A stretch of 64,000 nt of DNA from Lonicera japonica. Lineage: Eukaryota; Streptophyta; Magnoliopsida; Dipsacales; Caprifoliaceae. The notes beneath the pieces were generated by a model, which was not told the origin of the DNA, ran no database searches, and saw only the letters and a program-made list of their open reading frames with translations. Positions 12,339 to 57,735 of this stretch are shown here, in pieces. Each line of letters opens with the position of its first letter. Position 1 is the stretch's first letter. The translations under genes were made by a program, and so were the position numbers. The stretch covers positions 372,001 through 436,000 of the forward strand of contig JAKCWG010000953.1 of NCBI GenBank assembly GCA_021464415.1. Direction: 5' to 3'.

Positions 12339-15300
12339 GTACTACCTTCGTGCATAATTTTTAAAAGTATTGTGGTCTTTATGTGTTTTCTAATGTGATA
12401 TGATCACCATAATTTTTTGCATTGCTGGAAGTAGAATTTGGTGGAGGCTCCAACAATTTTAGTAAGAATTTGTGGTGGGCATTTTGCTGAGTGCATTTAT
12501 TCAAAAAGAGACTTAATACTGAACATTGCTCAATTTGAGATGTAGATATAGCCCTCTCTTTTTTTTCTTACCCCCGAAGGCGATTTTACACACACTGATG
12601 TGCGTTATGCACGGTGATCATGCACACTCTGCGCTCGTTTGGTTCGAGTTTTTGTTCGTTCCTGGAATCTAAAATGGTAATTTTTATATGGAAAGTTTTG
12701 ATTCTCATTAACTTATGATTCAACTTCTGGACATGAACTATAAACGACTTCTAGTGCGAATTTACTAATTTAGGATTCCATGAACGACCAAATTAAACTT
12801 GAACCAAAGGAGCACTCAATATATTTCTGCTTTTTGTTGTTCTCATTCACTGATTATAGGTGTCTCCCTCATTTCAATGCCTTTGTCCTTTTGGTTGCAA
12901 TTTTGAAAGTCAACTCTTTTTATGCTATTTTATAATTTGTTTCAATATTAATTTTTGACTTGAAGTGGTTTTTTCTATGAAGCATAGACCCGACACGCGA
13001 CACGCGTTTTGACACGACACGTGACCCGCAATTTTTCCAAAATGTAGGACACGACATGTTCTTAATTAAATTATTATGCAATAAACATTATAAATATTCA
13101 CTACACCAAAACTCGCTAACTGGCACGGTCCTACTTCGTGCCTGTAGACACCCCGATCCGTGACCCCCGCAAGAACCCTAACGACCTACGAGACTACTAT
13201 TTTTTGGGGTCCAGGACATACCCGAGCACCCAAAACTACCCCGGGGGGGTTTGTTGCGCGACAAACCTATTTTTATGAAGGATTGTCGCACGACATATCA
13301 CATTGTCGCGCGACAATCATTGGAATGTCGCGCGACAATCCCGTTATGTCGCGCGACAATCCCTCTCTGCACCAGACCAACCACTTTCTGACACATCACA
13401 GTGTCAGGACCCATCACTTCAGCCGCTTGTCGCGCGACATACAGGAATGTCGCGCGACAAACGGATATGTCGCGCGACACTTGCCCTTTTTGGGGAAATG
13501 TCGCGCGACAATCTTCCCCGAGCAGTATAAATAGGCCAACACCCCCAAGGGTTCAGGGGTAGCAATTGGAATCTGAGAATTTGGAGCTTTAGATTTGATT
13601 TTTATCAAGCATTTTTCTACTATTATCTTATTTCTGAAGAATTATCGAATCTATCCTCGACACTCGACGTGTCCCGTCTCTGGAATCGATTTCTCGGAAA
13701 TATCTGAAGAAAGAGAAGATTATTAACGCCAGAGATCCCTCTGCCGTATTATATTTTCTTTCTTATTATTATTCTCGTCGGGAAGGTAAAGAAAGTCCCT
13801 TCTAGTATTTAAAATTAGATATCTGTGTACTTGTTTTACTTCTGTTATTCTGTCCACGTTTTATTTGAATAAACTTATTGTCAAGTTACAAATAGTCTAT
13901 CGTTTTCGACACAAAAGACCCTGATAAAACCACTTTCAAAACCAGAAGAGTAAGTACATTATCGTCCGGATAAACCCTGTTTTCAAACCCCGGACCGATA
14001 AAAGACTTATCTAGGAATTAAAATCCACATATCCTGTCTTTTTCATAGACTGCGATGTGTCTGATAAACTCTCCTCAAAGAGTTCTAATTCCATATTGAA
14101 TTAGTCCCGACATAAAGATCCGAACTTTTCCAAAAATAATCACAACTCGAGAAAACCGTCATTATCTGAGGAAATAATACGAAATACTCTTTCAAAATAA
14201 AAGGTTTTTTGTCATTTGTCATTTACATCTTTTAATTTATAAAAACATCGGATCTCGGAATACAAAGGTTTTCACCCCTTTTTTACCGTTTTTCCCGAGA
14301 AATAGGGTTTTCTTTTAGAAAGTAGTAGACTATCGGTAAAAACATCCAAGTTTTTCAACATAGAATAAATATATAAGTCCACTAGAGACCGAAAGGGCGG
14401 AATGGGTGCTTAACACCTTCCCAAACCGTAATATAGTTCCCGAACCCTATAGAAACCTGGTTTCGCAGACAAACGTGTAAAGAAAGGCTTGTCTATAGCC
14501 TTTCCCCTTACACAACCTTTTTGTCCGTTTTCTCGTGAAACGTACTGGCGACTCTGAACGAACCCCTTTGCATCTAGAATAGACGTAGGGACACCCGATA
14601 TGAATTATCAAAACAAACTCCAAGCAAATGGAACGACGGGATCCTTTCCGACGTTTCAGACCACCACGAACGGGGACGAGACCCGGGGGGTCGCATTTGC
14701 GGATTCTCACAGTGGCGACTCTGCTGGGGACAATAGAAAACTAGACTCTTATATGTGGACTTTTGTTTATCTGTTGAAAACTTGCTTTTTTTTGCTTTCC
14801 TTACTTTTGTTGATCGATTGAGAAGAAACATTTTTCTGAAAAAGAGAATTTTTCAAAAATACGTAATCAAGATAATAATATTTGTAAACCCAACCTTTTC
14901 CGCACGCACTATCACAAATCATGCATTAGTTCTACGAGTGTGAATTTACCCCAAACCCTCGGAAGTATTATAAGTGAGTAGGGAGTTGGCTTGCTTGGGC
15001 CAACATAAACCGAAAGCATTTACTTCCACTCTCCTTGGCCAAGTACGCCCCCGAGGTATATCGAGTGACGAGAACACTCACGTACCCGGGAAGTATATCA
15101 AAAGATTCTTGCACGTACCCGCCCTTGGGGTATATCGCAAGGTCTTGCCAAAAAGGAGGGAGCCTGAAGCCTTAACCGTTCATACACCTGCGCTGCATAT
15201 AAGATCGAGTTAAAACACTTGTCAAACAGCCGTAGGGGATGTACCACTTTACGGCTTACTTTTTGACACCCTTTTTAAAATCCGAGGCTCTTCTCGGCAA

Positions 15301-18300
15301 TTTTTAGTGGTTCTTTTGGCAAAAATCGAGTCGCATCACAGTCTTCCTTCATCTTCGCCACGTGGTTTCGTCTACAGTCGTGAAGCAACAACATACTGGA
15401 AGGTTGGGCCGGCCGAGATCGCACCGGAAGACTAGTAAGACCAAGCACACCTGAAATGGCCAATGAACGCGAGAATCGAGAGACAGATCAGAGCCTAGCC
15501 GAGGCATCATCAGCTCAGCCAACCCTAGCCGAAATGCACCGTTTACTCATGACCGTCAGCAGGGATCTGGCAAACCTCACGAACGAGCAACAGGGTACCC
15601 GGATCCGAATAGAAGAATTATCAGCCGAACGAACTGCACCACCGGGGTTTGATCGAGTACCGCCGAATCGAGATCCGAACCAAGGACAGTCTTCACAAGT
15701 ACTCCCCCCAGTTCAAGGAACCAATCCACCCCAAGCGGGCCCTATCGTAGCTGTTCCCGTTCAAACCGACCCCAACAATCAGAACCAATGGGCCCCAGAT
15801 TCAGGCCCCACTTATCAACAGCAAGAGCCACCCATAGTCTGGCCACAACCCCAAGTACAACCCGATTTTGACCCCCAATACCAACCATGGCCACAAGTCC
15901 CCGCAAGACCTATTCCACCACCGGCCCCAGTGGCCCCTCCCAATGAGTACCCAGACATCAACCGACTCCGGGCAGCGTACGCAGAATCGGTTATAGCTCG
16001 GGAACAGCCTGATGAGGTGTCAAGAGAGAGCAAAGAAATGAAGAAATTGAAAGAGCAGATGAAGGTTCTGCAAAGAGGGGTTTCTCTGATAAAAGGGGCA
16101 GACGAGATCACAGACATGAACGCCTTTTCCCTCTACCCAGAAGCCAGACTACCTCAAGGATTTAAGCTCCCCTCTATCACCAAATTCACTGGAACCACAC
16201 CCCCCAAAACTCATCTCCAATCCTACATCAGATCCATGCAAGTGTCCAGTTGTGGAGAGCCGGAGCTAGCTCAGGCTTTTCACATGACTCTCACGGGGGC
16301 CGCCCTGAGATGGTTCTTCGATCTAGAGAAACACCACACAAAAACTTGGGGAGATATCGTCAAAGAGTTAATGACAAAGTACGGATCCAACGAGAGTTTG
16401 GAAATTACCCGTAAACACATGGAGATGGCCAAGCAAGGCGAGAAAGAGAGCTTCAGCGACTTTGTCACCCGCTGGAGGGAAATGGCATCCCAAATGTCCA
16501 AACGGCCCGACGAAGAAGAGCAGTTGGAAATCATACAGAAGAATTTTACTCCAGCTGTATTGAACTGCATGGGAAAGCATGTATTCCCACACTTCAGAGC
16601 CCTGTTGAGTATGGGGTCACAAGTAGAGGAGGAATTGGCCAAAAAGGCGGAAACGGATACCAAGAAGGCCTCTTACGCCGGAAGAAAGACGGCCACTCCA
16701 GCCGTAAACCAACTAAGCTCGTACCCGTATCAACAAAACCCATTCCAGCAGTCACCGCAAGTCCCCCCAATGAATTGGCCTACGCAGGGAGACTCTTCAA
16801 ACACCGAGGCCAAGAAAAGGAGAAATTTCTGCACCCTCCCCACTACTCTAGTTAAGAGCCTGGAACTACTCCAAAAAGTTGGACTAGTCACTCCACTCAA
16901 CCCACGCCCCCCACCAAACCCTATTCCCAACACTTGGAGAATAAATGAGAACTGTGCGTACCATCAAGCGGCAGGCCATGACACGGAACACTGTTTAGCT
17001 CTCCGCCATCGAATCCAGGACCTCATTGAAGCCGGAACCATCCACGCACCCGGCGGGCCCAATATTACCAACAACCCCCTCCCCAATCATGCTCCCCCTG
17101 CGGGAATTAACGCCTTGACCACTGATGAAGGCTTTGATCCCGTAGGACTCATTCGGGATGATCCAGCCTATAAGGCGCCCGTTATTCTACCGGCAAAAGC
17201 ACAAGTTGCCCCAGGCCTCAACCCAATAATTGACCAATGGATGGCCAAGATGAACTTCCTACCTGGGCAGGGCTTAGGAAAGACAAATCAGGGAATCTCG
17301 CAACCACTCACAATCAAAATCAATCCCGGAAAAGCTGGGATATGATGGACCCAAGACAAGAAGAAACAACCATGGAAACCCCGACCCCCCCATAAGGAGA
17401 CAATCTGTATGACAGAAACCTCCCCTGGGACTTTCAGTTGGTCGGCAGAGCCAGAGTCGTCAGAAGCTTCGGAGGGATCAGACCCAACATCCCTTTGGAT
17501 ACAACAGATTACCCGCTCGGGAAAGGTATACCAGCCACCACCGATGGATGCCGAGAAATCACCACCTCCTAAGGAAGTAGGAGAAGACCGAGTACTGGAA
17601 CAGTTGAAGAAAACCCAGGCACACATCACCATTTGGGGCCTCTTGGTTGCCTCCAAACCTCACAGGACCGCCTTCATTAAACTCCTAGATGAGGCTGTCA
17701 TATCGCCAAACTCCACGCCCGAACAGCTGCCAAACATGATCGGGTCACTCACAGTCCAAAGAAGTCTGTCATTTTCAGATGAAGACTTGTCTCCATTGGG
17801 GAGAAAACACAGCCTGGCTCTCCACATCACCGTCCGAACCCGAGGGAAGATCTTGCCACAAGTCCTCATCGACAATGGGTCGACCATAAATGTTTGCCCC
17901 CTGAAGACTGCCAGATGCTTAGGTATCTTGGATTCAGAGCTTTCACCATCCGCCGTAACCGTCAGGGCCTATAATAATACCAGGAGGGCCGTTCTGGGTT
18001 CTCTGAAGCTTGATCTCATGGTCGGTCCCGGAATCTTCCCGGCCGATTTTCAAATCATAGACATCCCCTCCAGTTTTAATCTACTGTTGGGAAGGGCATG
18101 GCTACACGACATAGGAGCACTCCCCTCCTCCTTACACCAGAAGATCAAGATACCATTCGAAGGGAACGTAATCACCATCCAAGGAGATCCTGAAAGGACC
18201 TTGGCAGATCTGGAATTTCCGATTTTGGGCATCGGGAGTCAGAGTATATAGTTGGGAGGCTTTTCTTACGAGCCTCAAGTACAAACTCTCAGCACCCAGG

Positions 18301-21300
18301 TAATCGAATATCTTCCCCCTGACAATATCCCCGGTCTCAGCATCAAGATCACGAATATGCTGAGAATGATGAAATACTTGCCTAGAGCCGGTCTGGGGAT
18401 GGGACAGCCAGGACTACTTCAAGCCTTGGAACCAGTAACGAGGTACGAAAGGGAAGGTTTGGGGTACCAACACACTGAAGAGGACGATCAACAAAAAAGA
18501 GTCCGAGGGCATCAGTATCCGAGTTTCAGCTCTCTGAACGGATTCTTTATCAAAGAAGGAGAGGACTTCCCCTTTTGCGGCTTCCAGGAGCCTTGGAGAA
18601 ACAGCAAAGGAGAGAACCTTCCTGGATGGGAAATCTTCTATGAAGAGGACCTCTATATCAAGGAAAACACCGTACACAGCTTCTCTACCAAGTTGACAAT
18701 CGGGTCGAAGGAAGAAAGTGAAGACAGGAGAGGCGAAGAGGAAGAAATGATCGGAGATCTCTTCGACATCATGGCTCTGGGGGATGATGAGCCAAGAGAC
18801 GACCCTGTACACTTGATATACGCTGATCCAAACTACCAAAGGGAAGGGGAAAAGAGCGAAATTGTAAGGGTGAGAGATAAGAGTGAGGGTAAGGATAGGA
18901 GTGAGTCTCTCTTAAATGAACTTTTTAAACTTGTACCTGTAAATACTATTATCAATGAAGAGAACTCTGTTTTTCGTTACCCTGTTATTTTTAATTCTGT
19001 AATTGCTTATATGGAATTGGAAAGATTGAACGAACACCCTGAACGGGAGGAGCAGCGTATACAAAGCGAGGAAGGAGACACTCTTGTGATTAACCTCGGA
19101 ACAGAGGAGGAAAGAAGAGAGGTCCGCATTGGGGCAAGCCTAAGTGAGACAGAAAGAGAAGAATTCACACAAACTCTGAAAGAGTATGTGGATGTCTTCG
19201 CCTGGTCTTATGCAGATATGCCAGGTTTGAACAGCCAGATAGTCATGCACGAGATACACACCAAGCCAGAATTTAGGCCCGTCAAGCAGAAGCTGAAGAA
19301 ACTTACGCCAGAATGGTCCTTAAAAGTGAAAGAAGAGGTGATGAAACAATTAAGTGTGGGTTTCTTGCGGGTAATCGAATACCCTTCGTGGTTAGCCAAC
19401 ATCGTGCCTGTTCCAAAAGCTAATGGGAAAGTCCGCATGTGTGTGGATTACCGGGATCTCAATAAAGCTTGTCCAAAAGACGATTTTCCCTTACCCAACA
19501 TTGATTTGATAGTAGATAATACTGCCAACCACGCCCTGAAGTCATTTGTGGATGGTTTTGCCGGATATAACCAGATCAAGATGCACCCAGATCACCAAGA
19601 GAAAACAGCATTCATCACACCGTGGGGAACATACTGCTACACCGTTATGCCATTTGGGCTAAAGAACGCCAGGGCAACGTATCAGAGGGCAGCTACGGCT
19701 ATCTTTCACGACATGATTCACAAAGAAGTAGAGGTGTATGTAGACGACATGATAATCAAGTCAAAAGAGAGGAAAGGCCACGTACCAGCCTTGCGAACCT
19801 TCTTTGATCGGCTCCGCCAATATCAGATGAGACTCAACCCGCAGAAATGTGTGTTCGGGGTAACCAAAGGAAAACTCCTGGGATATGTCGTCAGTAAGAA
19901 GGGAATCGAGGTGGACCCCGCTAAAGTTCAAGCTATCCAAGACATGCCTAAACCTCGTACCGAGAAAGAAGTCCGAGGATTTTTGGGTAATCTGCAGTAC
20001 ATCAGTAGGTTCATCTCTCAGCTCACTCAGACTTGCGAGCCCATCTTCAAACTCCTGAGGAAATCTTCACCAGGAGAGTGGGACGGCCAGTGCCAAGAAG
20101 CTTTTAATAGAATCAAAGAATACCTCTCCAAACCCCCAGTGTTAGCCCCGTCCCAGACCGGACTGCCACTAATCTTATACCTAACCGTCACTGATTCGGC
20201 TGCGGGAGCAATGCTAGCCCAGCACCTGACCGATACCCGGAAGGAGCAGGCCATCTATTTCCTCAGCAAAAAGCTGTCCCCGTTTGAGATAAACTACACA
20301 CCATTGGAGAAATCGTGTACCTCTCTCGTCTGGGTAACACAGAAACTACGGCACTATATGCTAGTTTTCCCAGTCATCCTGGCATCACGGATCGATCCGT
20401 TGAAATACCTCTTCGAGAAACCGGCTCTCTCGAACCGAATGGCAAAATGGTTGTTTCTACTCTCCGAATTCGACATCACCTACATGACCCAAAAGGCAGT
20501 CAAAGGCAAGATCATAACTGATTACCTGGCCCACAATTCGATATTAGAAGACATGCTAGAAGAAGCCGAGTTCCCGGACGAAACCATCATGAACGTCGAG
20601 ATCGATGAAGACTGGAAGTTGTACTTTGACGGGGCCGCCAATCGAAACGGAAACGGGATAGGCATCCTGTTAGTTTCTCCGGACCAAACTCACTCCCCGG
20701 TATCATATCGTCTGGACTTTTTCTGCACCAACAACATGGCCGAATATGAAGCATGCATACTCGGGTTAGAGATCGCTCTTCAAAAGGGTATAAAGAGAAT
20801 ACAGGTATACGGAGATTCAGCACTAGTGGTCCACCAAGTTCTGAAGGAATGGCAGATCAGAGATGAGAAATTAGTCCCTTACCTCGCCCGACTAGAGGAT
20901 GTCGCAGGAAAGTTCGAGCGTGTGGAGTTTTACTATATCCCCAGGTCCCAGAATAGTTTTGCTGACGCATTGGCAACCCTGGCATCTATGATCGATATTT
21001 CGGAGGGGATGGAAGAAATAACCCTCACGGTACAAAAGAAATCAGGACCCGCGCACTGCATGACCCTTGAGGTAGAAACTGAAAAAAACGGTGACTCGAC
21101 CGTTTGGTTTTATGACATCTGGAACCTTCTGAAGAACCACCAGTATCCCGAGGAAACAGACAAGAGAACGCGGGTCACCCTCAGAAGACTAGCATCAGGA
21201 TTCATACTCTGTGCCGGAAGATTATATAAAAGGAACTACGACGGGACTCATCTTCAATGTCTCACCGAAGAAGAATCGGTTAGAATGATGGATCAGATAC

Positions 21301-24300
21301 ATGGGGGCGATTGCGGACCTCATATGAGCGGGCATACACTTGCCCGCAAGATCATCAAGCAAGGGTATTTCTGGTCTACCCTACAAACCGACTGTGCTGA
21401 CCATGTACGCCGTTGTCACAAATGCCAAATCTATGCTAAATCCCAGAAGCTTCCTCCAAAAGAGTTGTACAACATGACTGCTCCCTGGCCTTTCACAACT
21501 TGGGGAATCGACGTCATAGGGAAAATCTCGCCCAAAGCCAGCAACGGCCATGAATTCATACTAGTAGCCATCGACTACTTCACCAAATGGGTGGAAGCCG
21601 AGTCTTACCAGACCCTGGATGCCAGGAAAGTTGCCCGATTCATCAAAAGGAACATTGTCTGCCGATATGGGGTCCCACACGAGATCATCTCAGATAACGG
21701 CACCCACTTCGAAGGAGAAGCTAATACAATCATGGAGGAATACGGTATCACCCGACACAAATCTTCGCCATATAGACCACAAACCAATGGGGCAGTTGAA
21801 GCCGCCAACAAGAATTTGAAGAATATCCTAAGCAAGATGACCGACACCTGCCGGGACTGACCGGAGAAATTACCATATGCATTGTGGGGATACCGCACCA
21901 CCGAGAGGGTCTCCACCGGGGCAACCCCATTCTCGCTGACATACGGGATGGAAGCAGTCCTCCCTGTCGAGTTAGAGTTCCCTTCCCTCAGAGTAATGCT
22001 AGAGAATCAAGTCAATGAACTGGAGTGGGTCCAGGCACGGTATAACGAGCTAGCCCTATTGGATGAGAAAAGATTGAAAGCAGCATACCACCATCAAGGG
22101 TATCAGAAGAGAATCGCTCGAGCATTTAACCAGAAAGTGAAGACTCGGGGTATCAATGAAAATGACATCGTGTTGAAAGAAATTCGAGAGCCAGCCAGAG
22201 ATCCAAGGGGTAAGTTCGGGCAGAAGTGGACAGGGCCATATATCGTCAAAGAAATCGATACCGGGGGCGCCGCTATACTCACTGACTTAGACGGGTAGTT
22301 ACTACATTCACCAGTCAACATGGACCGACTAAAGAAGTATTATCAATAGGCACAACATATATAAGAACTACGTAAACCTGAGCCCCAACTCGAATATTGT
22401 ATTTTGGAAAAATCAAAAAGGGGGAACGTAGGCAACCTGAGAAGTGACTTCAGGCCCGGTTTAAAGCTTTGTAAAGAAATTTATTTCTCATAAAAAAGTC
22501 CCTTCATATGTTATTAAAGAGGTGGTTCAGAACACCGAAAGTTACAAAGGAAGTACAGCATACAAGAAGAAACTAATCCCTAGGGGGTTGGCCACACTGG
22601 GTCCTCAGCGGCCAAATCAATACGAGCCTCGTCCAGAATCTGGTACGCAAAGACAATGCCATCCTCTGTAGGCTCAGAATCCATGAATCGGAACCACTCC
22701 ATTTGAAAGGGGTCGTCGATCAGTTCTCCTTCCAGAGTTTGCCAGCAAGAGCGGATAATATCAGCCCGGAGGGGCCGGGTAATACCGAAACGGGCATAGT
22801 TGAACTGACGAGTCAGTCGAGCACGCCACATCCTCTCTACCAATAAAGAAACATGCGGGGTCACAAATTTAGACTCAGAGGAGAAATTGTTCAGACCAAG
22901 GGGAACCTCCTGAGGAATGTTAAACTACCGAAGAAGACGTCCGGGGAGATAAAAAGAAGTAAACCAGAGCCCGCGAAGCCGAACATAGTTCTGACCCCCA
23001 GTGCTAAGTACCATTGCCCTCAGCTTCCACCAAGGAATGTTCCACCGGATAGCCCGAAAGTTCTCCGAAAACCACACCGTCCAATCAGAGGAAGACATGG
23101 TCAAAGCACCAAAGAGAGGCCGATGGAAGAAATGAGTCGGATTGTCGAGCCGAACCCCGTTGAAACCCACCGATCGAAAGCGCTCCAGCAGCCACATGTA
23201 TAGAAAACGCGGACTCCCCCGGAAGAAAGGCGAGACCCCCCGTTGAACATCATCAAGACCATTCAGGGTCTCTGCAAGAATGATCGGCACTACAGACTCC
23301 CCATTTCTAGCCTGGTAAATCAGACTCAGGATAGTCGGGTCAACACGGGAAGAACCCGTCACCAACAGCATATCAGAAACTAGGCAAATCAGGGCCGCTG
23401 CAGTACGCCCCACGCCGTAAGAGGCCCTATCTTCATAACGATGAAAGAACCTCACCATTTTATAGAGGTCAAGAAGTCCGTCGGCAATAAAACCATCACA
23501 GGCCGCTGGGGGAATGGCTAACAGAGCAATCAACATATCTCGAGGACCGATTTCTTCTATGGGGACTGCCATCGGGAGACAGACGTCAGAACGTAGCAGC
23601 CAGGAAAACTCCTCGTAAGTCGGGCAGAGCTCGTCAAGACCAAAACGGAAAAGGTGATCCACAGGGCTCCAAAAATGCAAAGCGCCTAACAAAAAGGAAA
23701 AATCTACAGGGCGATGACGCCAGCCCGCCAAAGGACTGAATGCACCGAAGTTCAAGCCATTTTCAGAAGATACCAAAGCATCCCGAGCATTAATAAAAGA
23801 AAAATCAGAGTTTGTACGATAGGAAGACATTTTGAGAGAGGTGTGGGGATGAAGGAAGGAAGATGGGTGTATTTATAGCAAAAAGGAGTGCCCTGTACCT
23901 GTTTGTCGCGCGACAAATCCACTTCCAAGGGGAAGTGTCGCGCGACAAACCCATGTATTGTCGCGCGACAAACCCATCTAGGGGCGCCCTACTTTTGTTT
24001 TCCTTATACATAATAGTCATCTTTGCCAAAAGAATCACTTCTGGATGCTTTCTTGTTCTCACTTTGTTCTCTTTTGCAGGAAACATAAATATCACTACGC
24101 TACAAGGTATAGCTTCTAAGAAACGTTGACTCTTATGTATATATCTTCCACAGACAGAGAATAAGAGTATAAACAGACACAAAAGATATTTTATAAATCC
24201 AACAAAAGAACAGTTTTTAAAGACTAAAAAAATCCGTCTAAAATAAATACATATCTGTCCAAACTAACACTGAAATGCAAAAAAGGAAAACTAATCTACT

Positions 24301-27300
24301 CGGGCGCGTTTTGACACGCTCCCGCTATCACCCGAGCCTTCCTCGGGAGTAAGATCAACGACTGGGACCCTGGGAGCAGGAGGAGCTGCCGCCTGGGAAG
24401 GACCCGTAGACTGAACCGGTGCCGTCGGACGGATCACCGAAGATCGGGATCGCCTAGAAGTCCGACTGCTACTCCGCCTAGACTCCGACCGAACATGAGA
24501 GGAGGTCAGGGGGTCGTCCGGCCGTAAGGAGACGTCGATAGCCCTCTGATAATCACGCATGTAGGCCGGAGGGTCTCGACCGACGTACTGGAGCAGGTTC
24601 CAGTTGTAAAGATACTGGGCGTGCCAAGCCCGTAGGTCTGCCACCCGTACACTCACCCGCTGTAAAAAGACATAAGATAAAAGAATCAGCACAGTCAAAA
24701 TAGATAGATATGGATGTAAAGGTATCAAGAGAAGTTGAAGAAAGTACCTTGTCATCAGGGCGACCACCCAGATAGTCAAAAGTATCCTCAGGAAGGGGGT
24801 ACTCCGGGACGGGATATCGACGTAATCCAGCGCCAACGTAAGAGATGTCCCTGGGGAGTGGGGGTAGATCTACCCACGGAATAGACGTCCCCGTCGGAAC
24901 ACCAGCAGAAGTGGACCCGCCCTCCTCGCGGATCGGGAACAAGGGAGGCCGGGATGAAGAACCCCCGAAACCTGGAGATCGGGCAGGAGGACCCATGACA
25001 GTCGTCGGAAGAGGAGTCAACGTGGCGTAGGTACGGACCCCCGAAGGATCCACTATGGCCGTCGCCCCCAAAGGAGGTACCCCACTAGAAGGAGTAGCCA
25101 CCGCAGCTGGAGGAGTCCGCCCGAACTGCTCGTAGTATGCCCCCAGGTCCGCAGGCTCCCAAGACCTCTCCGACAATCCCGCTCTCCCCGCAGCAGCCTC
25201 AGCAGCAGCAAAAAGAACCCCCGGAGACACAGAAGGGCCGGTGGGAAACTCGAAACCCTCAGCACGCTGCTCCCTCACAGGTGTCGCCTGAGGTGACGGC
25301 TCCGAAACAGCTGTCGCATCACCTCCCTCACCCTCTGGCTGACCACCGCCCTCGGCCGCAGCAGGAACATCCCTCTCTCCCTCAGGATCCTCGTCCTCAG
25401 AATCCGGAATGTTGTCCCTCTGATCAGGGACAGGTGGCAAGTGACCCGGAACCGCCCTAGCTAAATGGGTCTGTCCCCGTATGTAGTTGGGATCACCTCC
25501 CAATGCCCGGTACCTCTCATAGAAGACCCGTCCCCGAGTCCCCTTCGGCTCCCTCATCAGATAACGGGCAACAAAAATGGGGTAGTCTCCCTCCTCGACG
25601 AACGTCTGGAAGCCGAGTCCGTCGACCAAGGCCTGCACCGTCACCGGATCGATCTCGCCCGTCCGCCTCATCAGAACAGGAGGGAATAATGGAACACGAG
25701 GCCACTGGGACGGCGTGTGCTGGCGAATGACCCTCTCACCCAAGAAGAAGAGAAGGCCGTACTCATCCCGGATAAGCCGCCTAGTCCTCGAGGCGGTCAG
25801 GGCGCGGCCATACCCATAATGGGGACTCAGATCACCCCAAGGGGCCCCCTCAACCTGAAAAGAAAACAAGTTTTTTATTCTCAATAATTTATATATTCTA
25901 TCTAACTATCAAAGAGCAAGAGAACTAAAATATTTACTTGCTCCTCCAACAGGTCGTGAACGGCAGCAGCTCCGGTCTCCCGAGTCCGGTATACATAGGG
26001 AGCCCGGTAGTTCCCCGCAATGAATCGGCGAAAAAAAGGAAACTGGTCCTCGTTCTCAACGAGGAGATCCACCTGGGCACGACCCAGGCGGGTATAAGCA
26101 ACAAACTAGCTCTGAAAAGGAAAGATAAAAGAAATCAGCAATGATCAACAGGTAATATGTAAAGAACTGAAGCAAGGACAAAAGGACTAAAGTATGTACC
26201 TCCCACAGCAGAGAAAAGCCCTTGAGGTTCAGGGCTAAATGGCGAGAGACCTGGTCCATGGCATCATAGAGGACTGCAAGAATGAAGCCTCCCCAGTCAT
26301 AGTCAAACATGAGGCTGAAGTCCCGAAGATAGGGCAACCACCAAAGATGAGCCGTGTCCCCACCACGAGCCTCGAATAAATCATGGAGTGTCAACAGAAG
26401 AAGGACGCGGGCATACTGGCGCGCCTCCTGACGGGTCATAGGAACCCCTGAAGCAACTAGCCGAGCTCTCTCTGTGGCTAGCCGCGTAACTAAGACACCC
26501 CGAGGAATCGTATCACCAGAACTCCGTCGCTCCGGGAACCATCCAAGCGCACTAACAATACCCTCTGTCGTCAGACGCAAAGGGACATCGATCTGAATGG
26601 GGACCCCCCCCGAAGGAATCCCGGTCAGAGCAAAAAGATCGAGGGGTGTCATCGTCATCTCACCCCAGCTCCAATGGAAGGTATGAGTAGTATCCCACCA
26701 ATGGCAAGCCAGTGCTGACACCAAAACTGCCGCCCTAGAAACCCGCTCTGGGAGGGCGTCGAAGAGGGAGCCAAAAGGAGTCGCAAGAATCAACTCCTGG
26801 ACAGGGGCCGGTGCCCGTCGCCACTCCGAAGATATAGTGTTGGGAGAACCCCAACCCCGGCCAACCCACTGCAGACAAAAGAAAGAGATATTGGGTTATA
26901 GGGGTAAATTATGTAATTTTCCAAAACCTGAGGGTACTTTGGTGTAATTATGAGAGTTATAGGGCTATAGGGGTAAATTATGTAATTTTCCAAAACCTAA
27001 GGGTACTTTGGTGTAATTATGAGAGTTATAGGGCTATAAGGGTAATTTTCCAAAACCTGAGGGTACTTTGGTGTAAATATGAGAGTTATAGGGCTATAAG
27101 GGTAAAATATGTAATTTTCAAAAACCTGAGGGTATTTTGGTGTAATTATGAGAGTTATAGGGCTATAAGGGTAATTTCCAAAACCTGAGGGTATTTTGGT
27201 GTAATTATAAGAGTTGTAGGGCTATAGGGGTAAATTATGTAACTTTCCAAACCTGAGGGTACTTTGGTGTAATTATGAGAGTTATAGGGCAATAGGGGTA

Positions 27301-30300
27301 AATTATGTAATTTTCCAAACCTGAGGGTACTTTGGTGTAATTATGATGGTTATAGGGCTATGGGGGTAAAGTATGTAATTTTCCAAACCTGAGGGTACTT
27401 TGGTGTAATTATGATAGTTATAGGGCTATAGGGGTAAATTATGTAATTTTCCAAACCTGATGGTACTTTGGTGTAATTATGAGAGTTATAGGGCTATAGG
27501 GGTAAAATTATGTAATTTTCCAAAACCTAAGGGTACTTTGGTGTAATTATGAGAGTTATAGGGCTATAGGGGTAAATTATGTAATTTTCTAAACCTGAGG
27601 GTACTTTGGTGTAATTATGAGAGTTATAGGGCTATAGGGGTAGATTATGTATTTTTCCTAAATCCTAAGAGGTATCACAGGTAAAAGTATGTGTTCGCTA
27701 AAAATCGGGCGTTATTCAAGGCAGACATGCATACTAACATTATTGAAAATGAAATACAGGAAACGACAAGAAACAGAACAGATAAAGAAGACATACCAGA
27801 GATCGACGGCGAATCTCGTGAGAGACAGGCTCCATCAAGAGCCACGGGACATCTGGGACTGGAGCAGCTCGGATAGCATCTCGATAGACCACCGCTCGAC
27901 CGCGGTCTATCCCATCCTCATCGTACCAATCCAAGTCCGCCCAGTCATCATGATGAGGGCTGCAGCGGAGAACGCCTTGAGCGTCAGTGAAGGTGACCTC
28001 CTCCTGGTCACCCTCCAGTCTGTCGGGATAAGCAAGGTCCATCAGGTATAGGTAGGATATATGAAGAAGGCCGGAAAAGTCGAAAACGCGACAGAGCTTC
28101 CGCGCTAGGAACAAGAGAGAAGGAGAGTTAGAGAGAGAAAGAGAAAGGAGAGAATGAGGTGGAATGAGCTCAGCAGGAGGCTTATATAGTGGGTCAGTTT
28201 GTCGCGCGACAAATGGCCACATTGTCGCGCGACAAAGGGCTCCCCACCGAAGTGTCGCGCGACAATCTCCCATCCCCCCTGATTTTTTGACCTTTTTCTC
28301 ATTTTTACCTCCTGCAGGAAGACTTCCGAGGGGCAGTTTTCGAAAAGATTGCTAAAACCGCACACCCATGATAAAGATTTCAACGAGCAAACTTCCAAAT
28401 CATCTCCCCGAAAAATGCGAGAGCGGAATGCCACGATTAAAAGTAGTCTCTGATCTCACAGAAGGACCGAGACCATCAATTAAGAAAAAGCAGAATAGCG
28501 AGATAAGACGGGAATAGAAAAAATTGAAAGAGTAGAAAAGAGAAATAACCCGTATGAGCGCCCAAAGCGAGCAAGAGAAACAGAAAAGAAGAGTGGCAGG
28601 GAGAGCCACACCAAAAGTGACAGCTAGGCCAAATCGGCTCAGGGCTTCGTTTTGGGTGAGTAAGGCTCCTGATCACGACAAAGGGATAAAAAGACTCCTG
28701 GTCAAAAACAGAGAGGGCCAGGAAGAGTCTTTCCCAAAAGAGGGAGAAATAAGGGCATCAAAAAACAGAAAACGATGTTGGGCCTACCAAAAAGAGAAAC
28801 TGAGAAAAGAACAGAGATCAGAGATTGGACTTTTAGACAAATTTTCTTTTCAGCACGATACAGGAGAGATGGTTTGGAAAATCCTCGAATCATCACACTG
28901 CGGAAAGCAAAAGAAAATCGAAGACTGCCTTCTGAGAAAAGTACCCTCACTCGAGGAAAACATGAGAACGAAATTCAAGAAAGATACAGGAAAGCGGACA
29001 TTCGGATAAGATTTGACCTCGAGGAGCTCTTTTCACCCTCACGAAAGCTTCTCTTTCTCACTCTAGCAGTCTAAAGAGAGACAAATTAAATTTTAAAAAT
29101 CACAAACATAAGCCCTCTTCAGAGGCAAAATCACAAGCCCTCTCCAGAGGCAAAAGTTACTCATGAAAGTCCTCCCAGAGGCAGTTTTCCTTCTTCTTAC
29201 AGATCTAGAAGCCCTCCCAGAGAGGCACAACGGTAGTCCTCCCACCTGAGGCGGAGCCCTCCCAGAGAGGCACAACGGTAGTCCTCCCACCTGAGGCGAA
29301 GCCCTCCCAGAGAGGCACAAACGGTAGTCCTCCCACCCGACGCGAAGCCCTCCCAGAGAGGCACAACGGTAGTCCTCCCACCCGAGGCGAAGCCCTCCCA
29401 GAGAGGCACAACGGTAGTCCTCCCACCCGAGGCGAAGCCCTCCCAGAGAGGCACAACGGTAGTCCTCCCACCCGAGGCGAAGCCCTCCCAGAGAGGCACA
29501 ACGGTAGTCCTCCCACCCGAGGCGAAGCCCTCCCAGAGAGGCACAACGGTAGTCCTCCCACCTGAGGCGTAGCCCTCCCAGAGAGGCACAACGGTAGTCC
29601 TCCCATCTGAGGCGCAAATGGTAGTCCTCCCATCTGAGGCGCAAAGAAGATCAATGGTAGTCCTCCCATCTGAGGCAAGTGGAACAAGTCAAAGCCCTCG
29701 AGAGAGGCAATGAGGTAACAAAAGCCCTCTCCGGAGGCACTCACAAGCACTTTTTGCATAAACACTTCTTTAGAGTTCATGCGGGAGCCATGGATCATGG
29801 TCTCTTCCAGTCGCCTCAATTGCTTGCAAGCAAGGAGCTTGAGTCGAGAGGGTCTGTAGACACCCCGATCCGTGACCCCCGCAAGAACCCTAACGACCTA
29901 CGAGACTACTATTTTTTGGGGTCCAGGACACACCCGAGCACCCGAAACTACCCCGGGGGGGTTTGTTGCGCGACAAACCTATTTTTATGAAGGATTGTCG
30001 CACGACATATCACATTGTCGCGCGACAATCATTGGAATGTCGCGCGACAATCCCGTTATGTCGCGCGACAATCCCGTTATGTCGCGCGACAATCCCTCTC
30101 TGCACCAGACCAACCACTTTCTGACACATCACAGTGTCAGGACCCATCACTTCAGCCGCTTGTCGCGCGACATACAGGAATGTCGCGCGACAAACGGATA
30201 TGTCGCGCGACACTTGCCCTTTTTGGGGAAATGTCGCGCGACAATCTTCCCCGAGCAGTATAAATAGGCCAACACCCCCAAGGGTTCAGGGGCAGCAATT

Positions 30301-33300
30301 GAAATCTGAGAATTTGGAGCTTTAGATTTGATTTTTATCAAGCATTTTTCTACTATTATCTTATTTCTGAAGAATTATCGAATCTATCCTCGACACTCGA
30401 CGTGTCCCGTCTCCGGAATCGATTTCTCGGAAATATCTAAAGAAAGAGAAGATTATTAACGCCAGAGATCCCTCTGCCGTATTATATTTTCTTTCTTATT
30501 ATTATTCTCATCGGGAAGGTAAAGAAAGTCCCTTCTAGTATTTAAAATTAGATATCTGTGTACTTGTTTTACTTCTATTATTCTGTCCACGTTTTATTTG
30601 AATAAACTTATTGTCAAGTTACAAATAGTCTATCGTTTTCGACACAAAAGACCCTGATAAAACCACTTTCAAAACCAGAAGAGTAAGTACATTATCGTCC
30701 GGATAAACCCTGTTTTCAAACCCCGGACCGATAAAAGACTTATCTAGGAATTAAAATCCACATATCCTGTCTTTTTCATAGACTGCGATGTGTCTGATAA
30801 ACTCTCCTCAAAGAGTTCTAATTCCATATTGAATTAGTCCCGACATAAAGATCCGAACTTTTCCAAAAATAATCACAACTCGAGAAAACCGTCATTATCT
30901 GAGGAAATAATACGAAATACTCTTTCAAAATAAAAGGTTTTTTGTCATTTGTCATTTACATCTTTTAATTTATAAAAACATCGGATCTCGGAATACAAAG
31001 GTTTTCACCCCTTTTTTCCCATTTTTCCCGAGAAATAGGGTTTTCTTTTAGAAAGTAGTAGACTATCGGTAAAAACATCCAAGTTTTTCAACATAGAATA
31101 AATATATAAGTCCACTAGAGACCGAAAGGGCGGAATGGGTGCTTAACACCTTCCCAAACCGTAATATAGTTCCCGAACCCTATAGAAACCTGGTTTCGCA
31201 GACAAACGTGTAAAGAAAGGCTTATCTATAGCCTTTCCCCTTACACAACCTTTTTGTCCGTTTTCTCGTGAAACATACTGGCGACTCTGAACGAACCCCT
31301 TTGCATCTAGAATAGACGTAGGGACACCCGATATGAATTATCAAAACAAACTCCAAGCAAATGGAACGACGGGATCCTTTCCGACGTTTCAGACCACCAC
31401 GAACGGGGACGAGACCCGGGGGGTCGCATTTGCGGAATCTCACAGTGCCTGACCAACTTTAGCACGGCTCCGAGCCGTGCCAAATAAGGCCGTACCAATT
31501 TATTTAACACGGCTTCACACCGTGCTTAATTCGTACATTTTCTTGGTCAAAGGGTACCAATTTCACCAAATTTGATACCACTATAGCACGGATAGTTACC
31601 GTGCCAATATTATGACACGTGTCATCTCGATAACTTTCCACGTGTCATCATAGTAATGATATAATAATATCGTTGGTGGCACTGCGTAGGCACCCTTTTG
31701 GAATGGTTTAGACACTGCATAGGCACCCTTTTGGAACTGTTTTGGCACTGCAAAGGCACCCTTTTGCCACAGTTATAGCACTGTCGACAATCTAGACACT
31801 AATTAAATATAGAACGGTTTTGGCACGGTTCTTAGCCGTGCCAAAATGACCGCTAAATTATGCTGCTACTGCCTGTTTTTTTGGTTTTCAGTTTTTCCCT
31901 GTTGTATTTGCTTTTAATTTTTCCACCCATTGCATAGTATTCAAACATCCAACAAAAAACCATACAAAATACAATTGCTTCACAATAAATACAATCACAC
32001 CCAATTAAATTCAAAAAAACCACAATAAATACAAATACATCTCAATATAACTAAGCAAGGAATAATATTATATTAACTTCACAAAACAAAGTCATTTGAT
32101 GAGATTATGTCTTCCTAAATTACAAGTTTGTACTAGATTGCATAATATTGATGTTTACATTTGATAGCAAGCTAAGGACCAAAAAAACTCAAACATTAGT
32201 TTAAGACAAAAAAACCTCCAAATGTTTTTCCACCATTAGTTAGCAACCTCCCCTTGCTACTTAGTATATGCAAGTAGATATCCCAAAAAATATATATTAG
32301 CACCCCCAAACTTCAATTGAAGGCAAAAAGAACCCTAAACTTTTAAGTACTCCAAGCTTCCACCATTAGTTAGCAATCACCCTTTGCTACTTTAATATAT
32401 ATACACCTGTACAAGGTAATATAATAAAAAAACAATATATTAGAATGCTAAAACTACTTTATAAAAAACTAGAATTTTAATGAAAGCAATGTTGAGATAA
32501 GTTAAACTAAATTTATATTAAGTAAACATAAATAAATCACAAGAGTTGAGAGTACTTACTAATGCATCTAATCATCAATGCAAGGAAGAAAGTCATCGTG
32601 CCAATACATAATCCCACCAACACCTACATCTTCCAATGTGGTAGCACATCCTTGTTGTCCACCCCACAATGAATGGTTAGGCATTACTATTTTATCAAGT
32701 ACAACTTTAACTTCCCTAAGTTTCAATTTATGGCCATGCACCTCGGTGACGGCCCCAATATTCAATTTCCTACCACGCCCGACAATTTCACTCTTGTAAG
32801 AAAGTATGTTGCAATTTATCTCATCGTCTCCAACTTGAGAATGAGTTGTTAAGCGAGTATGAGGGACACTAAAAGGATTTTCAAAAGTAGGAGTTTCGGT
32901 TGTACGTGAATTTTCAAAATTGTGTCCAACACTCACAAATTTTCCACTTTTAAAGTCTTCAATAAATTGTGTGAATGCCGACTTCATTCGCTCCACTTCT
33001 TCCGTAAGGTTGTCCACTTTCGCCTCGCAACCATTATCTTTCATGCTAACTTCGGCAAGCATTTCACGTGCAAATGCCGAAGCCAACATGGCTTTTCTAG
33101 AAATATTAGAGCCGACACAACGCACTCTTCCTCTTGAATCTTTCCCAAATACTTCATAAATAGGACCACTATCCAAGGTTTCTTTCTCGCCCCTCTCTTG
33201 AAATACCTTCAAAAGTAACTTGATTTGATTCTGCAAATAAAGACAAAAATCATATTTATACTACATTTTAACAAGTTATATGTTAGACGAATAAAATTAA

Positions 33301-52730: not shown

Positions 52731-53577
52731 TAAGTCGGAGATTTTAATTTTAGAATAAAAGGGTATATTTGTCTATACAAAAATATGGAAAAACACTTAA
52801 GGTTATTCGTGTTTTTATATATACACTACAAGAAAAAGGGCCTCTTGTGACAGGTAAAAAACCGTCACAAAAACACATTTGTGACGGCTTTGCGACGGTT
52901 TTTGAAGTGTTACAAGTTAGGTGGATCTCAAAAACTCGGTGACGGCAAAATTCTGTGACAAATACTTTTTGTGACGGATTTGTGACGGATTTGCCGGTGT
53001 TACAAAAAACCTATCATTTTTGCTAATTTATTGTCACAGTTTATTTGTGATGGCTTCAAGCGTTACTTATATTGTTATTGTGACGACAATTGCCGTCACA
53101 AATATGTAACTTTGCCAGTCGCAAATAGTGTATTTCTGACGGCTTGATCTCGTTACAAATAAACATATATCTTATTTATAACAACTTATATTAGCCGTCA
53201 CAAAAAGTACTCAGCAACGTCACAACACTACTGCCTAGTCGGATTGATATTTGAAATTTGTTTTTATTAAGATTTCAGTTCCATCAAACCAATTAAACAC
53301 CAAAAAAAAAAAAAAAAACAAACTAGATAACATCAACTAAATAATTTTCTTCACATAGATTAAACCAAACCAAAATACAATATTCAAAAGTATTATCCAC
53401 CACATATTGTTCAATATCAATCCAAAATTTTAAAATGGTGCTTACAACATAGTCTAAGCAACCAAAACCATTGTTTATAACATGTAAACTCTTTTCCAAA
53501 AAGAAGCCCATTGTAGTAGTCTTGCTTGCACAACTTTCATTTCCTTTCATTCAGATCCTGACACATAAAAAAAAAAA

Positions 53578-53808
53578 TTAGATATTAGGCATTAAATAGC
53601 TTAAAGTAAAATTTACAATGTCTACATGCTCTTTCACAATCTCCCATGTAAGTTGGTAACGGTTGACACACTTTTTACATGGACAAAATATTGGGGAGTC
53701 AAATTGTTTCATAGCATAAGCAAATTTGAAAAACTTCTCAACCCCATCCGTATATTCTATTGATAACTTATTGATTAGTTCAATCCAACTTTTATCCAGA
53801 GATATTTA
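53578..53808 (-). pseudogene. CACTA TNPD fragment (transposase-associated domain)
   Basis: A 76-codon frame with LDKSWIELINKLSIEYTDGV, KFFKFAYAM and FCPCKKCVN, the pattern of the N-terminal zinc-binding domain (PF13963 type) of CACTA transposases. Stops on both sides and no further transposase sequence. Confidence 0.75.
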
Positions 53809-55460
53809 ACCTAATGAAATATCAAGCACAAAATATAGCATCATTAACAAGCACAAAAAAAGGAGGATTAAACTATATATGCATCTTCATAATAGGGATA
53901 TAGTTCTAACTAAAAATTTATTTGACCAACTTAAAGACCAAACTCAATACACAATTATAATTATAGAGTTCAAATGCACTCCTAAAAAAATAGCGTATAA
54001 AGAGCATTCCTAAAAATAGTCCAAGTATATCATTCCTATAAAATTGGTGCAAGTGCCAACTTAAAATCCAATGAATTTTTAACAAAATCCAAAAACCATA
54101 TATGTTGTTAGTTTAACTCTATGCAGCACTGCATCACCATAGCACCATAGCAGTGCAAGCACAAAATGATGAAACAGTACTTAGGCATTTAAACTATAAT
54201 AATATGGTAATACCTATCCAATTTAAAAACTATAACTACACCTAATCGCAATTTCAAAATACATGGGCATTTAAATTATTTACGCAACTTCACATTTTTC
54301 ATTTAAACAAACATCAATCTCTTGGCTTATAAGGAAAGCTCATGAAACTAATATGTAGAATGAATTTGCAACCATGCCAATAATTCAAAAAACAAACTAA
54401 TTAAATACGTAGAGGGTTTAGAAGAATAAATAAATACCTAACAACTTGCAGTTGCTTTTGTGTGTACGTGCTCTACGACATCGTCGGTGGTGCAGCCTTA
54501 TCGTGGAATTTGTACGGGCACAAAGCAAGCCTAATTTCGCTACAAAACCTACAGGAATAAGATAAATCTATGAACCATAAGCTAAAATTGAAGTAGTGCA
54601 AGTGCTGTATGAGCTGGTAATCGTCAGGAGCAAAAATTGCCAAAACTTATTTCACCAATTATGTCTAATATAGAATTATAGAGTTTAAATGCAATCCTAA
54701 AACTAGTGTATAAAGTGCAATCCTAAAAACAGTGCAAGTGCAGCAGTCCTATAAAAACAGTGGAAGTGCCAACTTAAAATTCAATCAGTTTTTAACAAAA
54801 TCTAGAAATGTGCAATAGTCCCCAAATTCAGTCCTAAAGCAGTCCCTAAATTCAGTCCTAAAATAGTCCATTTGCTACTTGCTTAGTCCTAAAACTAAAA
54901 CTGATATAATGAACTGAAATACAGTAATCTGATATGAAACAATCTGAAATCAAAGCAATCTGAAACTGATATGCTTTCATTCATCATGCTATCATTAAAT
55001 TGCGAAATGAATAAATTATGAAATCAATTACACTGTATTAATAAAAAAAAAAAAAATTAAACATCAATTGCACTACTTTTTTTATTTATTAATTTTTTTC
55101 CTAATGTGATTAAGTTCAAAAATCAAAATCATTTTTTTGTTCTCCTTTGTTTACTTAAGCAATTAATAGCGAAGAAGAGGATAATAATTAAGTCCCTAGA
55201 GCATTTGTATCGTCTTTACATATCTATCTCGTGTTAAAACAAGAATATTTATACTAAATTTGATACACTTAAATCCTAAGTATCAAGTATGTGAGGCTAT
55301 CCACCGGCAGCAAATGCTCTATAGTATAATTTTAATACGTATTACTCTATTACAAGTAGAGTATATGGGAACTGAAGAATAAACATATGATAAAATCAAA
55401 TGTTTTTAATTTTCAACATTAGAAAAGGAATGTAATTGTCATATGGTAGTTAAAATGGAT
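53809..55460. other. CACTA interior, non-coding, with an internal duplication
   Basis: 53960-54090 and 54680-54805 are diverged copies of one block (around AAGTGCCAACTTAAAAT and TTTTTAACAAAATC). No gene recognised. Confidence 0.55.
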
Positions 55461-55470
55461 GCACCAGTAC

Positions 55471-55635
55471 CAGAGGCAGACCAAGGGGGACAGGGTGGGC
55501 TTCAGCCTGGGGGGAAATTTTGAAAAAATCCATTAGCACTTGTAAAAAAAAAATAAAAAAATAAAAAAATTAGTATGAGCCCACTCCTTTGCTAGATTTT
55601 AGCCACCCCTCGTAAAATTCCTAAGTCCGCCCCTG
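55471..55635. mobile_element. hAT-like MITE, 165 bp, perfect 8-bp target duplication
   Basis: Starts CAGAGGCAGACCAAGG and, reversed, CAGGGGCGGACTTAGG; flanked by ACCAGTAC at 55463-55470 and 55636-55643. Inserted into the CACTA element. Confidence 0.88.
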
Positions 55636-55643
55636 ACCAGTAC

Positions 55644-57380
55644 TGATTGAGTGGTGAAAAATCAAGAAATGACAATGGACACTACTTTTCCATATAATTC
55701 AAAGAAGAGGAGCATCAATTAAAGAGACGGAGCCAGTCAAAAGTTCTAAACTAAACATTCTCATGCTATCATTAAAAGCAATGCTATATCTGTGCAAGTA
55801 CAAACATAAAATAAAAACTTTGCAAATTGCCAAAATTAAAATCCAATGCAATGCTCTTATTTAATTCTTTTTTCTTTGCTTCAGTTAACATTGGTGTCTC
55901 TCCTTAGTCCTTACTAATATCAAACATTGTTTAGTTCAATGACATAGAGAGAGATATAAATTGACATCTAATCGACTGAATGAATAGGACAATAGAAAGC
56001 TTATAATCACACTCAGACTCGTTAATAATTGTTGATATGCTTCATCGATGGAATAGGAAAAGAAAAGGGAATTATTGAACTTCTTGACATACTAGCACTC
56101 GATAGCTCAAAATGATTGCATAAAATGTCTTTAATATATATGTGAAAATTTATAAAATGAATCAACATATATACATGTGTATATATATATGTATTAGCTA
56201 GTCCCGTGACTATATATGTGTAAATACACTAAATGAATCGACACACGTACGCGCACACACATATATATTAGCCAATCTTCTATGTGAATGATCCTTAGTA
56301 CTTTTATCTTGACAGTGAGAAATTAAACATTAGAGGCATACATGTTGTGCCTATATATGCTGGTATATATATATATAGGATAGACAAGTGTAGGACCGCC
56401 CTACGATGGACAATCATACAGGCCCTAATTATACTTAAAGTTTTTATATAACAGCCTCATATTTTAAGTACTAGAAGAAAATAAGAGCCAAGATGTATTA
56501 TATATTTTCCCGTAATAATTAAGAAGCACCAGAAATGCAACTTTGACACTTGAGTCTTTATAATTCGGGATCAGCTCTATACACGTATTATTATTCGTTC
56601 ATGCATAAAAAAAAGCAGGTAACAAACCCATAATATTTGTAGTTGTGTTCTGAGAGTAAAAAGGAAAGAATATAAATAGTGGACACAGAGAGAGTGGATC
56701 TATTGTAGCAGTAGTAGTACATGTGTGTTATATTTGCTCTCTTTTGCCTTTTATTTTTATTTAAGAGTTAATAAACTTCAATAAAGTAAAATTACCATGA
56801 GGTAAATTAGAAGTCTTTAATTTTCCGGATACTCATGACAGAGGAAAAGAAGCAGCATCTTAGTGTTGAAACTTTGAAATTAGAATACCATCCAAACAAA
56901 ATCAACATAATCAAAAAAAAAAAAAGGGAGAGGAAAACTTAGGTTAAAACTTTAAATTTTATAGTTATGGTTTATTTTGAGCTAAAATGAAATAAATCAC
57001 TTCGACTGTATAAAGCATATACTTGGTTATCGGGTTCACAAATATATACTAAAATAATTTCTTAGGCAAAATAAGTCTAACATGCATGCCTCTACCGGTT
57101 AATCACCCTCAACCTTTAAGAAAGCATAGCTGAAGATTATCAAAAACTTATTGTTAACATTCAAAATGATTGATGGCCCCAACTATTTTATAAATGAGTA
57201 TCTCGAATCAATCCAAACAAAATACTTCAATCTAAGAATTTATAGATATGAGATAACTAGATAACCATTAAATAAACTATAATTTTGAATTCAAGATGTG
57301 ATCGATTAATCTTGCAAGAATTAGTTATAATTTAACCAAATCAAATGTGCATTTTAGGTATAAATATATATACATATATT
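55644..57380. other. CACTA interior, AT-rich, nothing recognised
   Basis: Contains (AT)n runs near 56180 and 56365-56378; no gene or family recognised. Confidence 0.45.
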
Positions 57381-57412
<32 letters not shown>

Positions 57413-57422
57413 GATAGAGAGA
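57381..57422. repeat. (GA)n / (GATA)n microsatellite
   Basis: GA repeats passing into GATAGA repeats, directly before a G-rich island (57423-57735). Confidence 0.85.
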
Positions 57423-57735
57423 AGGGGCCTTACTTGGAAGTGGGTTTCTCTGGTTAGGGTTAGGGTTTTGGAGGTAGAGCCTCATCGACGGCAGTGGTGG
57501 TTGTGGGAGACGGCGGTGGTGATGGTTGTGAGCAACGGCAGTGGTGAACAACGGTGGAGTAGACTAGGGTTTCGAGGTGGATAAGAAGTGTGGTGATAGT
57601 GGTTACGATTGAAAGGAGATGATTATGGTGATTGGCGATGGAGATGAAGAGGGGTACGGTTTTGAGCGGGAGGATCGAGGGTTCTGAGTGGGAGAGAAAA
57701 GGGAGTTTATGCGGGCGAAGTTTTGGAGGAAGAAA
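57423..57735. promoter_or_regulatory. G-rich island inside the second CACTA element
   Basis: GGT/GGC-rich with GACGGCGGTGG-type stretches, the only GC-rich part of this CACTA. It resembles the island at 35233-35460 in the first CACTA and may be a remnant of a promoter or untranslated exon. Frames over it are not convincing proteins. Confidence 0.35.

Follow-up and report, generated by a model that had tools for sequence, protein, structure and literature searches.

Antisense open reading frames (ORFs) encoding plant mobile domain (PMD) proteins have been described in plant long terminal repeat (LTR) retrotransposons of the Tat/Ogre type of Ty3/gypsy, where the roles of antisense genes are undetermined (PMC7264820, PMC11963269) and PMD itself is a domain of unknown function (PMC7156037); these papers, and those cited below, are drawn on in excerpt. 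Here, we analyse an 18.3-kb element of this type in a 64-kb stretch of Lonicera japonica (64,000 nucleotides of contig JAKCWG010000953.1, hereafter the window), in which a CpG-rich 12-bp palindrome, TGTCGCGCGACA, stands in arrays beside the TATA boxes of the LTRs and of two antisense PMD-type genes. The element shares with the described Tat/Ogre elements the order of reverse transcriptase (RT) and RNase H, a second RNase H before the integrase, a PMD gene, and a long region with tandem repeats between pol and the 3' LTR. It differs in that each of its two PMD-type genes has its own promoter and that one palindrome is common to these promoters and the LTR, a site of which the excerpts give no description.

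A short motif that is clustered and locally duplicated in the noncoding parts of an element, beside element-encoded extra proteins, is found in VANDAL transposons with their VANC anti-silencing system (PMC5735166, PMC10398659). The Lonicera element likewise has a short motif in clusters within its noncoding parts, but element class and motif are different, its gene 1 encodes a PMD protein and its sites lie just upstream of TATA boxes. The VANC21 motif YAGTATTAY is not enriched, with 3 occurrences in the window vs 2.43 expected, one of them inside the element. Foamy virus Tas/Bel1 is another kind of protein than PMD and comes from an animal retrovirus, the likeness being one of mechanism only. 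Bovine foamy virus BTas is element-encoded and binds an internal promoter as well as that of the LTR (PMC4929722). In Arabidopsis, PMD proteins are tied to a short transcription-linked promoter motif through MAIN, MAIL1 and PP7L: 25 of the 26 genes down in all MAIN, MAIL1 or PP7L mutant backgrounds share a promoter 'DOWN' motif (PMC7156037), given as CATGCAGTTT and present in front of MORC1 (PMC9899485). A physical interaction links MAIN with MAIL1 (PMC7156037). These are host genes (PMD-C), and unlike the palindrome their motif is neither palindromic nor CpG-rich. A preprint reportedly treats modules of PMD proteins and DNA motifs in connection with Polycomb; it was absent from the matches of our literature search, which did not extend to bioRxiv preprints and in which no title or abstract opening among the matches listed concerned a motif common to an LTR and antisense PMD genes. 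Among other antisense genes, gene23 of Grande is served by a promoter of its own and yields a nuclear product (PMC7264820, PMC11963269), while Retand elements mostly carry a TRP28 domain rather than PMD, the excerpts describing no cis element held in common with the LTR.

Palindrome arrays at sense and antisense promoters

Exact copies of TGTCGCGCGACA number 21 in the window and 0 in each of 100 dinucleotide shuffles, and allowing up to two mismatches raises the count to 25, against 0.49 expected. All 25 are confined to four arrays, one in each LTR and one at each antisense-gene promoter, with 7, 3, 3 and 8 perfect sites in order along the stretch. An earlier, sequence-only reading of this DNA had reported these positions and counts (7+2, 3, 3 and 8+2), the absence of the palindrome elsewhere in the window and three CpGs in every site, all of which our exact and mismatch searches and the sequence of TGTCGCGCGACA bear out. 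The arrays and the TATA boxes next to them are:

13252..13510, no strand: palindrome array in the U3 region of the 5' LTR, 7 perfect and 2 one-mismatch sites
13526..13533, plus strand: TATA box TATAAATA of the LTR promoter, with the last palindrome 15 bp before it
23870..23877, minus strand: TATAAATA box of the second antisense gene, nearest palindrome 26 bp away
23904..23970, no strand: palindrome array upstream of the second antisense gene, 3 palindromes
28182..28188, minus strand: TATATAA box of the PMD gene, nearest palindrome 11 bp away
28200..28264, no strand: palindrome array upstream of the antisense PMD gene, 3 palindromes
29964..30243, no strand: palindrome array in the 3' LTR, 8 perfect and 2 one-mismatch sites, TATA box at 30259

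The sites are close to invariant, 21 of the 25 having the same sequence and the remaining four (13252, 13284, 29964 and 29996, all within the LTR arrays) being off by a single base. These four carry C-to-T or G-to-A at a CpG and are the same two in both LTRs; since the changes are present in both LTRs, the degenerate sites are probably older than the insertion. The hexamer CGCGCG occurs 21 times in the window, each time within TGTCGCGCGACA, and of the 30 distinct 12-bp palindromes present only TGTCGCGCGACA and two AT-repeat ones occur more than once. Flanking bases at the 13 perfect sites of the 5' LTR and antisense promoters are no more than mildly biased, with A/T prevailing at positions one and two and C next. 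A literature text search returned the full 12-mer only in a paper on chicken PRMT4, unrelated by title. A pattern of two palindrome sites gave 0 matches in the viral collection IMG/VR, from which records of the source genome or one near it were possibly excluded, and 8 stretches in a prokaryote collection, which we take as background. Paired copies of TGTCGCGCGACA, three pairs in all, were seen in the prokaryote collection on two contigs of one Bacteroidales bin (L008, 1838-1975; L007, 2797-2849) and are probably unrelated.

Each of the four arrays has a TATA box, TATA[AT]A[AT][AG], on its gene side, at 13526 (+), 30259 (+), 23877 (-) and 28188 (-), with gaps of 15, 15, 26 and 11 bp, respectively, to the nearest palindrome; the earlier statement that the clusters lie just upstream of a TATA box in all four places thus holds, at 11-26 bp. 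Thirteen TATA-like strings are found in the element and nine of these are without an array, so the rule is that every array has a TATA box, not that every TATA box has an array. With 91 such strings on the plus strand and 86 on the minus strand of the 64 kb, the chance of one falling within 30 bp on a given side is ~0.04. Since the 3' LTR duplicates the 5' LTR apart from a few differences, the independent evidence comes from three promoters, not four, for which the joint chance is ~7e-5 (hand arithmetic, with the pattern chosen after the sites had been seen).

When the palindromes are masked, U3 compared with either antisense promoter in both orientations is matched in score by 18 to 81 of 300 shuffles in all four comparisons. 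When the two masked antisense promoters are compared with each other, one orientation gives a score, over 15 bp, that 1 of 300 shuffles reaches, and the opposite orientation a score that 32 of 300 reach (six comparisons in all). U3 and the antisense promoters thus align no better than shuffles once masked, leaving the 12 bp as their shared feature, as a common regulator would need; between LTR and antisense promoters, the 12 bp would have been either gained separately or retained while all else changed.

The spacing of the sites is also patterned. Intervals between palindromes are 32, 20, 22, 21, 81, 20, 20 and 31 in the 5' LTR, 32 and 23 at the second antisense gene, and 23 followed by 30 at its PMD neighbour. 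These 12 values, not all independent, concentrate near whole multiples of 10.5 bp, with a mean cosine of 0.69 (p 1.2e-4 vs jittered intervals; p 0.002 on a reduced set of 9). The evidence that palindrome-bound dimers would lie on one DNA face is fair but not strong.

Lonicera macranthoides provides a sibling of the second antisense gene, the annotated protein P0009 (LguiA_007186), which extends the observation beyond a single copy and also points to Lonicera or a near relative (Dipsacales) as the origin of the window. Its annotated start codon lies upstream of the gene's own, so that its first 41 residues are translated promoter, and 37 of these 41 are identical to the window. Both palindromes within this stretch, which translate in different registers as LSRDT and CRAT, keep their residues, and so does the TATA box (AINT); the third palindrome falls upstream of the annotated start and outside view. 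The residue match permits 1728 and 192 spellings, and P0009 supports conservation of the sites short of base-level proof. The sequence-only reading had named absence of the motif from sibling antisense promoters as evidence that would overturn it; as far as this check has been run, the sibling keeps both visible sites and the TATA box at the residue level.

The host element and its two antisense genes

The element is bounded by two TG...CA LTRs and a 5-bp target site duplication (TSD), with gag-pol on the plus strand and both PMD-type genes on the minus strand:

13143..14711, plus strand: 5' LTR, 1569 bp, TG...CA, TSD GTGCC at 13138-13142, read directly from the sequence
14713..14732, plus strand: putative primer binding site immediately downstream of the 5' LTR, called from sequence only
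15384..22298, plus strand: gag-pol frame, with gag and G-patch, RT, RNase H, second RNase H and integrase
22580..23830, minus strand: second antisense gene, ATG at 23830, putative PMD superfamily
24291..24659, minus strand: PMD gene exon 4, ending in KRARVD and a stop
24748..25854, minus strand: PMD gene exon 3, splice-site model
26200..26868, minus strand: PMD gene exon 2, containing the PF10536 match
27797..28042, minus strand: PMD gene exon 1, ATG at 28042, model from splice sites
29855..31444, plus strand: 3' LTR, 1590 bp, TG...CA, TSD GTGCC at 31445-31449

Because the LTRs differ at only 13 substitutions in 1569 bp (the alignment ran to 1571) and one 21-bp indel, the insertion is young; the indel contains one palindrome unit, extra in the 3' LTR. 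The pol ORF contains RVT_1 (387-546), RT_RNaseH (638-740), RVT_3 (798-910) and rve (1080-1176), and a protease-like stretch can be made out in the gag-pol frame by eye only. An extra RNase H lying between the first one and the integrase is the mark of the angiosperm Tat clades Ogre and Retand (PMC6317226), and the element has such a domain there. Retand elements have LTRs of 315-1194 bp and internal regions of 7380-12869 bp (PMC11963269). The 1569-bp LTR and 15.1-kb internal region found here both lie above these ranges and PMD was found, with no TRP28 listed among the ORFs scanned, so the element is more likely an Ogre than a Retand.

In this copy gag-pol has in-frame stops at 17343, 18249 and 21858, yet the antisense PMD model is open; with LTRs diverged by 0.8%, this may be chance. 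Just upstream of the 3' LTR lies a tandem array of 45-bp units (29184-29634, 8 register copies of a 135-nt reference), which has more than one open antisense frame but is probably noncoding. The palindrome array of the 3' LTR, translated and used in a protein search, gave 25 candidates, of which not one had an E of 10 or less. In IMG/VR, scans guided by protein sequence returned 4 pattern-matching stretches for the PMD exon, 2 for pol and 15 for the second gene, none encoding a relative, with the source genome or near ones possibly excluded.

The first antisense gene is modelled from splice sites as four exons with GT-AG junctions, all joined in phase 0 and open for 796 codons. PF10536 scores 65.6 bits on the exon-2 ORF and 60.3 bits on the spliced protein, against a cut-off of 34.9, placing the product within PMD, and its C-terminal KRARVD looks like a nuclear localisation signal. 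The first intron (26869-27796) holds a tandem repeat (26850-27729) of 12 copies in register at 60-70 bp spacing.

The second antisense gene is interrupted in this copy by an in-frame stop at 22925-22927, beyond which the sequence matches the C-terminus of the Lonicera relative down to a stop codon at 22580-22582. The sibling P0009, 93% identical, matches PMD at E 1.6e-5 with 24.7 of 34.9 bits, under the cut-off, and the distant relatives P0010 and P0018 are above the cut-off of PF24924 (DUF7745), P0018 being above that of PF10536 too. The gene's own protein falls below both cut-offs, and in place of the earlier label 'DUF7745-like' it is better described as belonging to the PMD superfamily, as a member of neither Pfam family.

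Around the insertion, the element sits ~40 bp inside an apparent CACTA-type DNA transposon end (13099-13142 and 31445-31800, with an exact CACTACACCAAAA at 13099), and is surrounded by GGCACGG/CCGTGCC repeats resembling the TSD GTGCC. Elsewhere in the window, CACTACAAGAAAA at 52824 (+) and 59636-59648 (-) could mark the inverted ends of a second CACTA-type element (52824-59648), and remnants at 789-2233 and 62100-63299 are by eye like gypsy-type and copia-type polyproteins, respectively.

A candidate regulator and competing explanations

We propose that the palindrome arrays are binding sites of one dimeric DNA-binding factor, which would place three units under common upstream control: sense gag-pol from the LTR and the two antisense PMD-type genes. 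A perfect palindrome would serve both strands equally, and as most sites are ~2 or 3 helical turns apart, bound dimers would come to lie on the same side of the DNA, beside the TATA box. That the palindromes are shared sites for one dimeric factor is very probable. The factor may be the element's own PMD protein, with the open 796-residue product the first choice; we regard this as a little short of an even bet, the element-encoded protein being the leading candidate and a host factor almost as likely. Such a protein would activate or unsilence its own gene, the partner gene and the promoter of the genomic RNA, closing a positive loop. For the explanation as a whole, dimeric-factor arrays, common control and a PMD-driven positive loop, we would put the probability at about 0.45. 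Its most specific form, in which the antisense PMD protein, acting as a sequence-specific dimer, reads the CpG-rich palindrome and as activator or anti-silencer controls the genomic RNA, its own gene and the second PMD-type gene, is advanced tentatively and with some doubt. We infer binding, dimerisation, factor identity and the sign of regulation. With three CpGs per site, gating by methylation is possible, though this is speculative. The 'private regulon' of the sequence-only reading finds partial support: its sites, their restriction to the element within the window, and their position at the sense and both antisense promoters are borne out, while its link to a binding protein stays conjectural.

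Several observations weigh against the proposal. The element encodes two different PMD-type proteins, and a perfect palindrome fits a homodimer best. The second protein, as it stands in the window, has no listed PF10536 match and reaches PF24924 only at E 0.22 (11 bits of 26), and an hhalign profile comparison between the two sets of proteins gave a probability of 0.2%, which is not significant. Among solved structures none is related to the PMD exon, the sole match being at E 0.12. Direct DNA binding by MAIN and MAIL1 is left open (PMC9899485), and their DOWN motif CATGCAGTTT looks nothing like TGTCGCGCGACA and is not enriched, with 0 exact and 2 one-mismatch occurrences in the window vs 5.0 expected. 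A period scan of the intervals scores more at 10.0 (0.78) and 12.0 (0.75) than at 10.5 (0.70). CpG differences between the LTRs, 0 of 25 in the motif vs 5 of 65 outside it, go in the right direction but are not significant (p 0.32). The whole, moreover, is based on one element copy and two sites of one sibling.

The most serious alternative is that the palindromes bind a host transcription factor, the sites having been collected in all three promoters, in the way that other LTRs gather enhancer repeats, for expression wherever that factor is active and with the PMD proteins uninvolved, and this we regard as a strong contender, just behind the element's own protein. The arrays do resemble ordinary U3 enhancer repeats, one site unit having been gained or lost between the LTRs, but the motif is found nowhere outside the element within the window. 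As to which host factor, the E2F palindrome, which we take to be TTTCGCGCGAAA, lies one base per half from TGTCGCGCGACA, whereas the CAMTA consensus, presumably VCGCGB, is unmet by TCGCGC or GCGCGA, which counts against a host factor of that kind. TGTCGCGCGACA also includes TGTC...GACA, the auxin response factor core, and TGTCGC reporters drive expression (PMC10690724). Auxin response factor dimers, however, use half-sites at inverted-repeat (IR) spacings IR5-IR9, best IR7/8, with TGTCGG preferred and other inverted spacings used perhaps, if rarely (PMC10690724). In the 21 perfect sites the hexamers abut (IR0), so an auxin response factor site is disfavoured by its spacing of 0; a literature search on 'IR0' did not bring up the term among the matches listed.

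The remaining alternatives account for less of the pattern. All three promoters pair the same palindrome with a TATA box, as they would if the antisense promoters were old copies of the LTR U3 promoter with the palindromes as passengers, but the masked U3 aligned to them no better than shuffles did in any of the four comparisons, which argues against a copied origin from U3 for both, and it would be surprising for passengers to match at 12 of 12 positions in all six antisense sites once their flanks had diverged fully. We consider such copying improbable; descent of both antisense promoters from a single one is less firmly excluded. Still less probable, and about equally so, are two readings that dispense with a sequence-specific protein. 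Perfect sites are self-complementary, and the copies in the 3' LTR and antisense promoters should be within the genomic RNA, where they might form hairpins or a dimer linkage, or in DNA cruciforms; a structural role nevertheless leaves the TATA adjacency at three promoters on both strands unexplained, the 5' LTR sites are upstream of the likely transcription start, and RNA pairing tolerates compensatory changes, yet the sites are nearly all identical. Alternatively, the arrays could be CpG-rich targets or sensors of methylation with no specific sequence reader, given their CpG content and a CpG observed/expected ratio of 1.29 in the LTR vs 0.73 for the window, but generic CpG content needs no exact 12-mer 21 times, and the only other recurrent 12-bp palindromes are AT repeats.

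Possible consequences for antisense genes and PMD proteins

With a single palindrome standing at the sense promoter as well as at those of the two antisense PMD-type genes, the role of the antisense genes and the function of PMD both become directly testable, and public annotation of such elements can be mined for it through translated promoters, as in P0009. If binding by the element's own PMD protein is true, Ty3/gypsy elements would have separately evolved a Tas- and VANC-like system, and TGTCGCGCGACA would be, as far as the literature searched shows, the first DNA target of any PMD protein that a transposon encodes. MAIN, MAIL1 and other PMD regulators of the host could then descend from element activators of this kind. 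Should PMD proteins bind in this way, many plant elements may carry a self-encoded regulator, and the origin of host PMD proteins would gain a concrete model.

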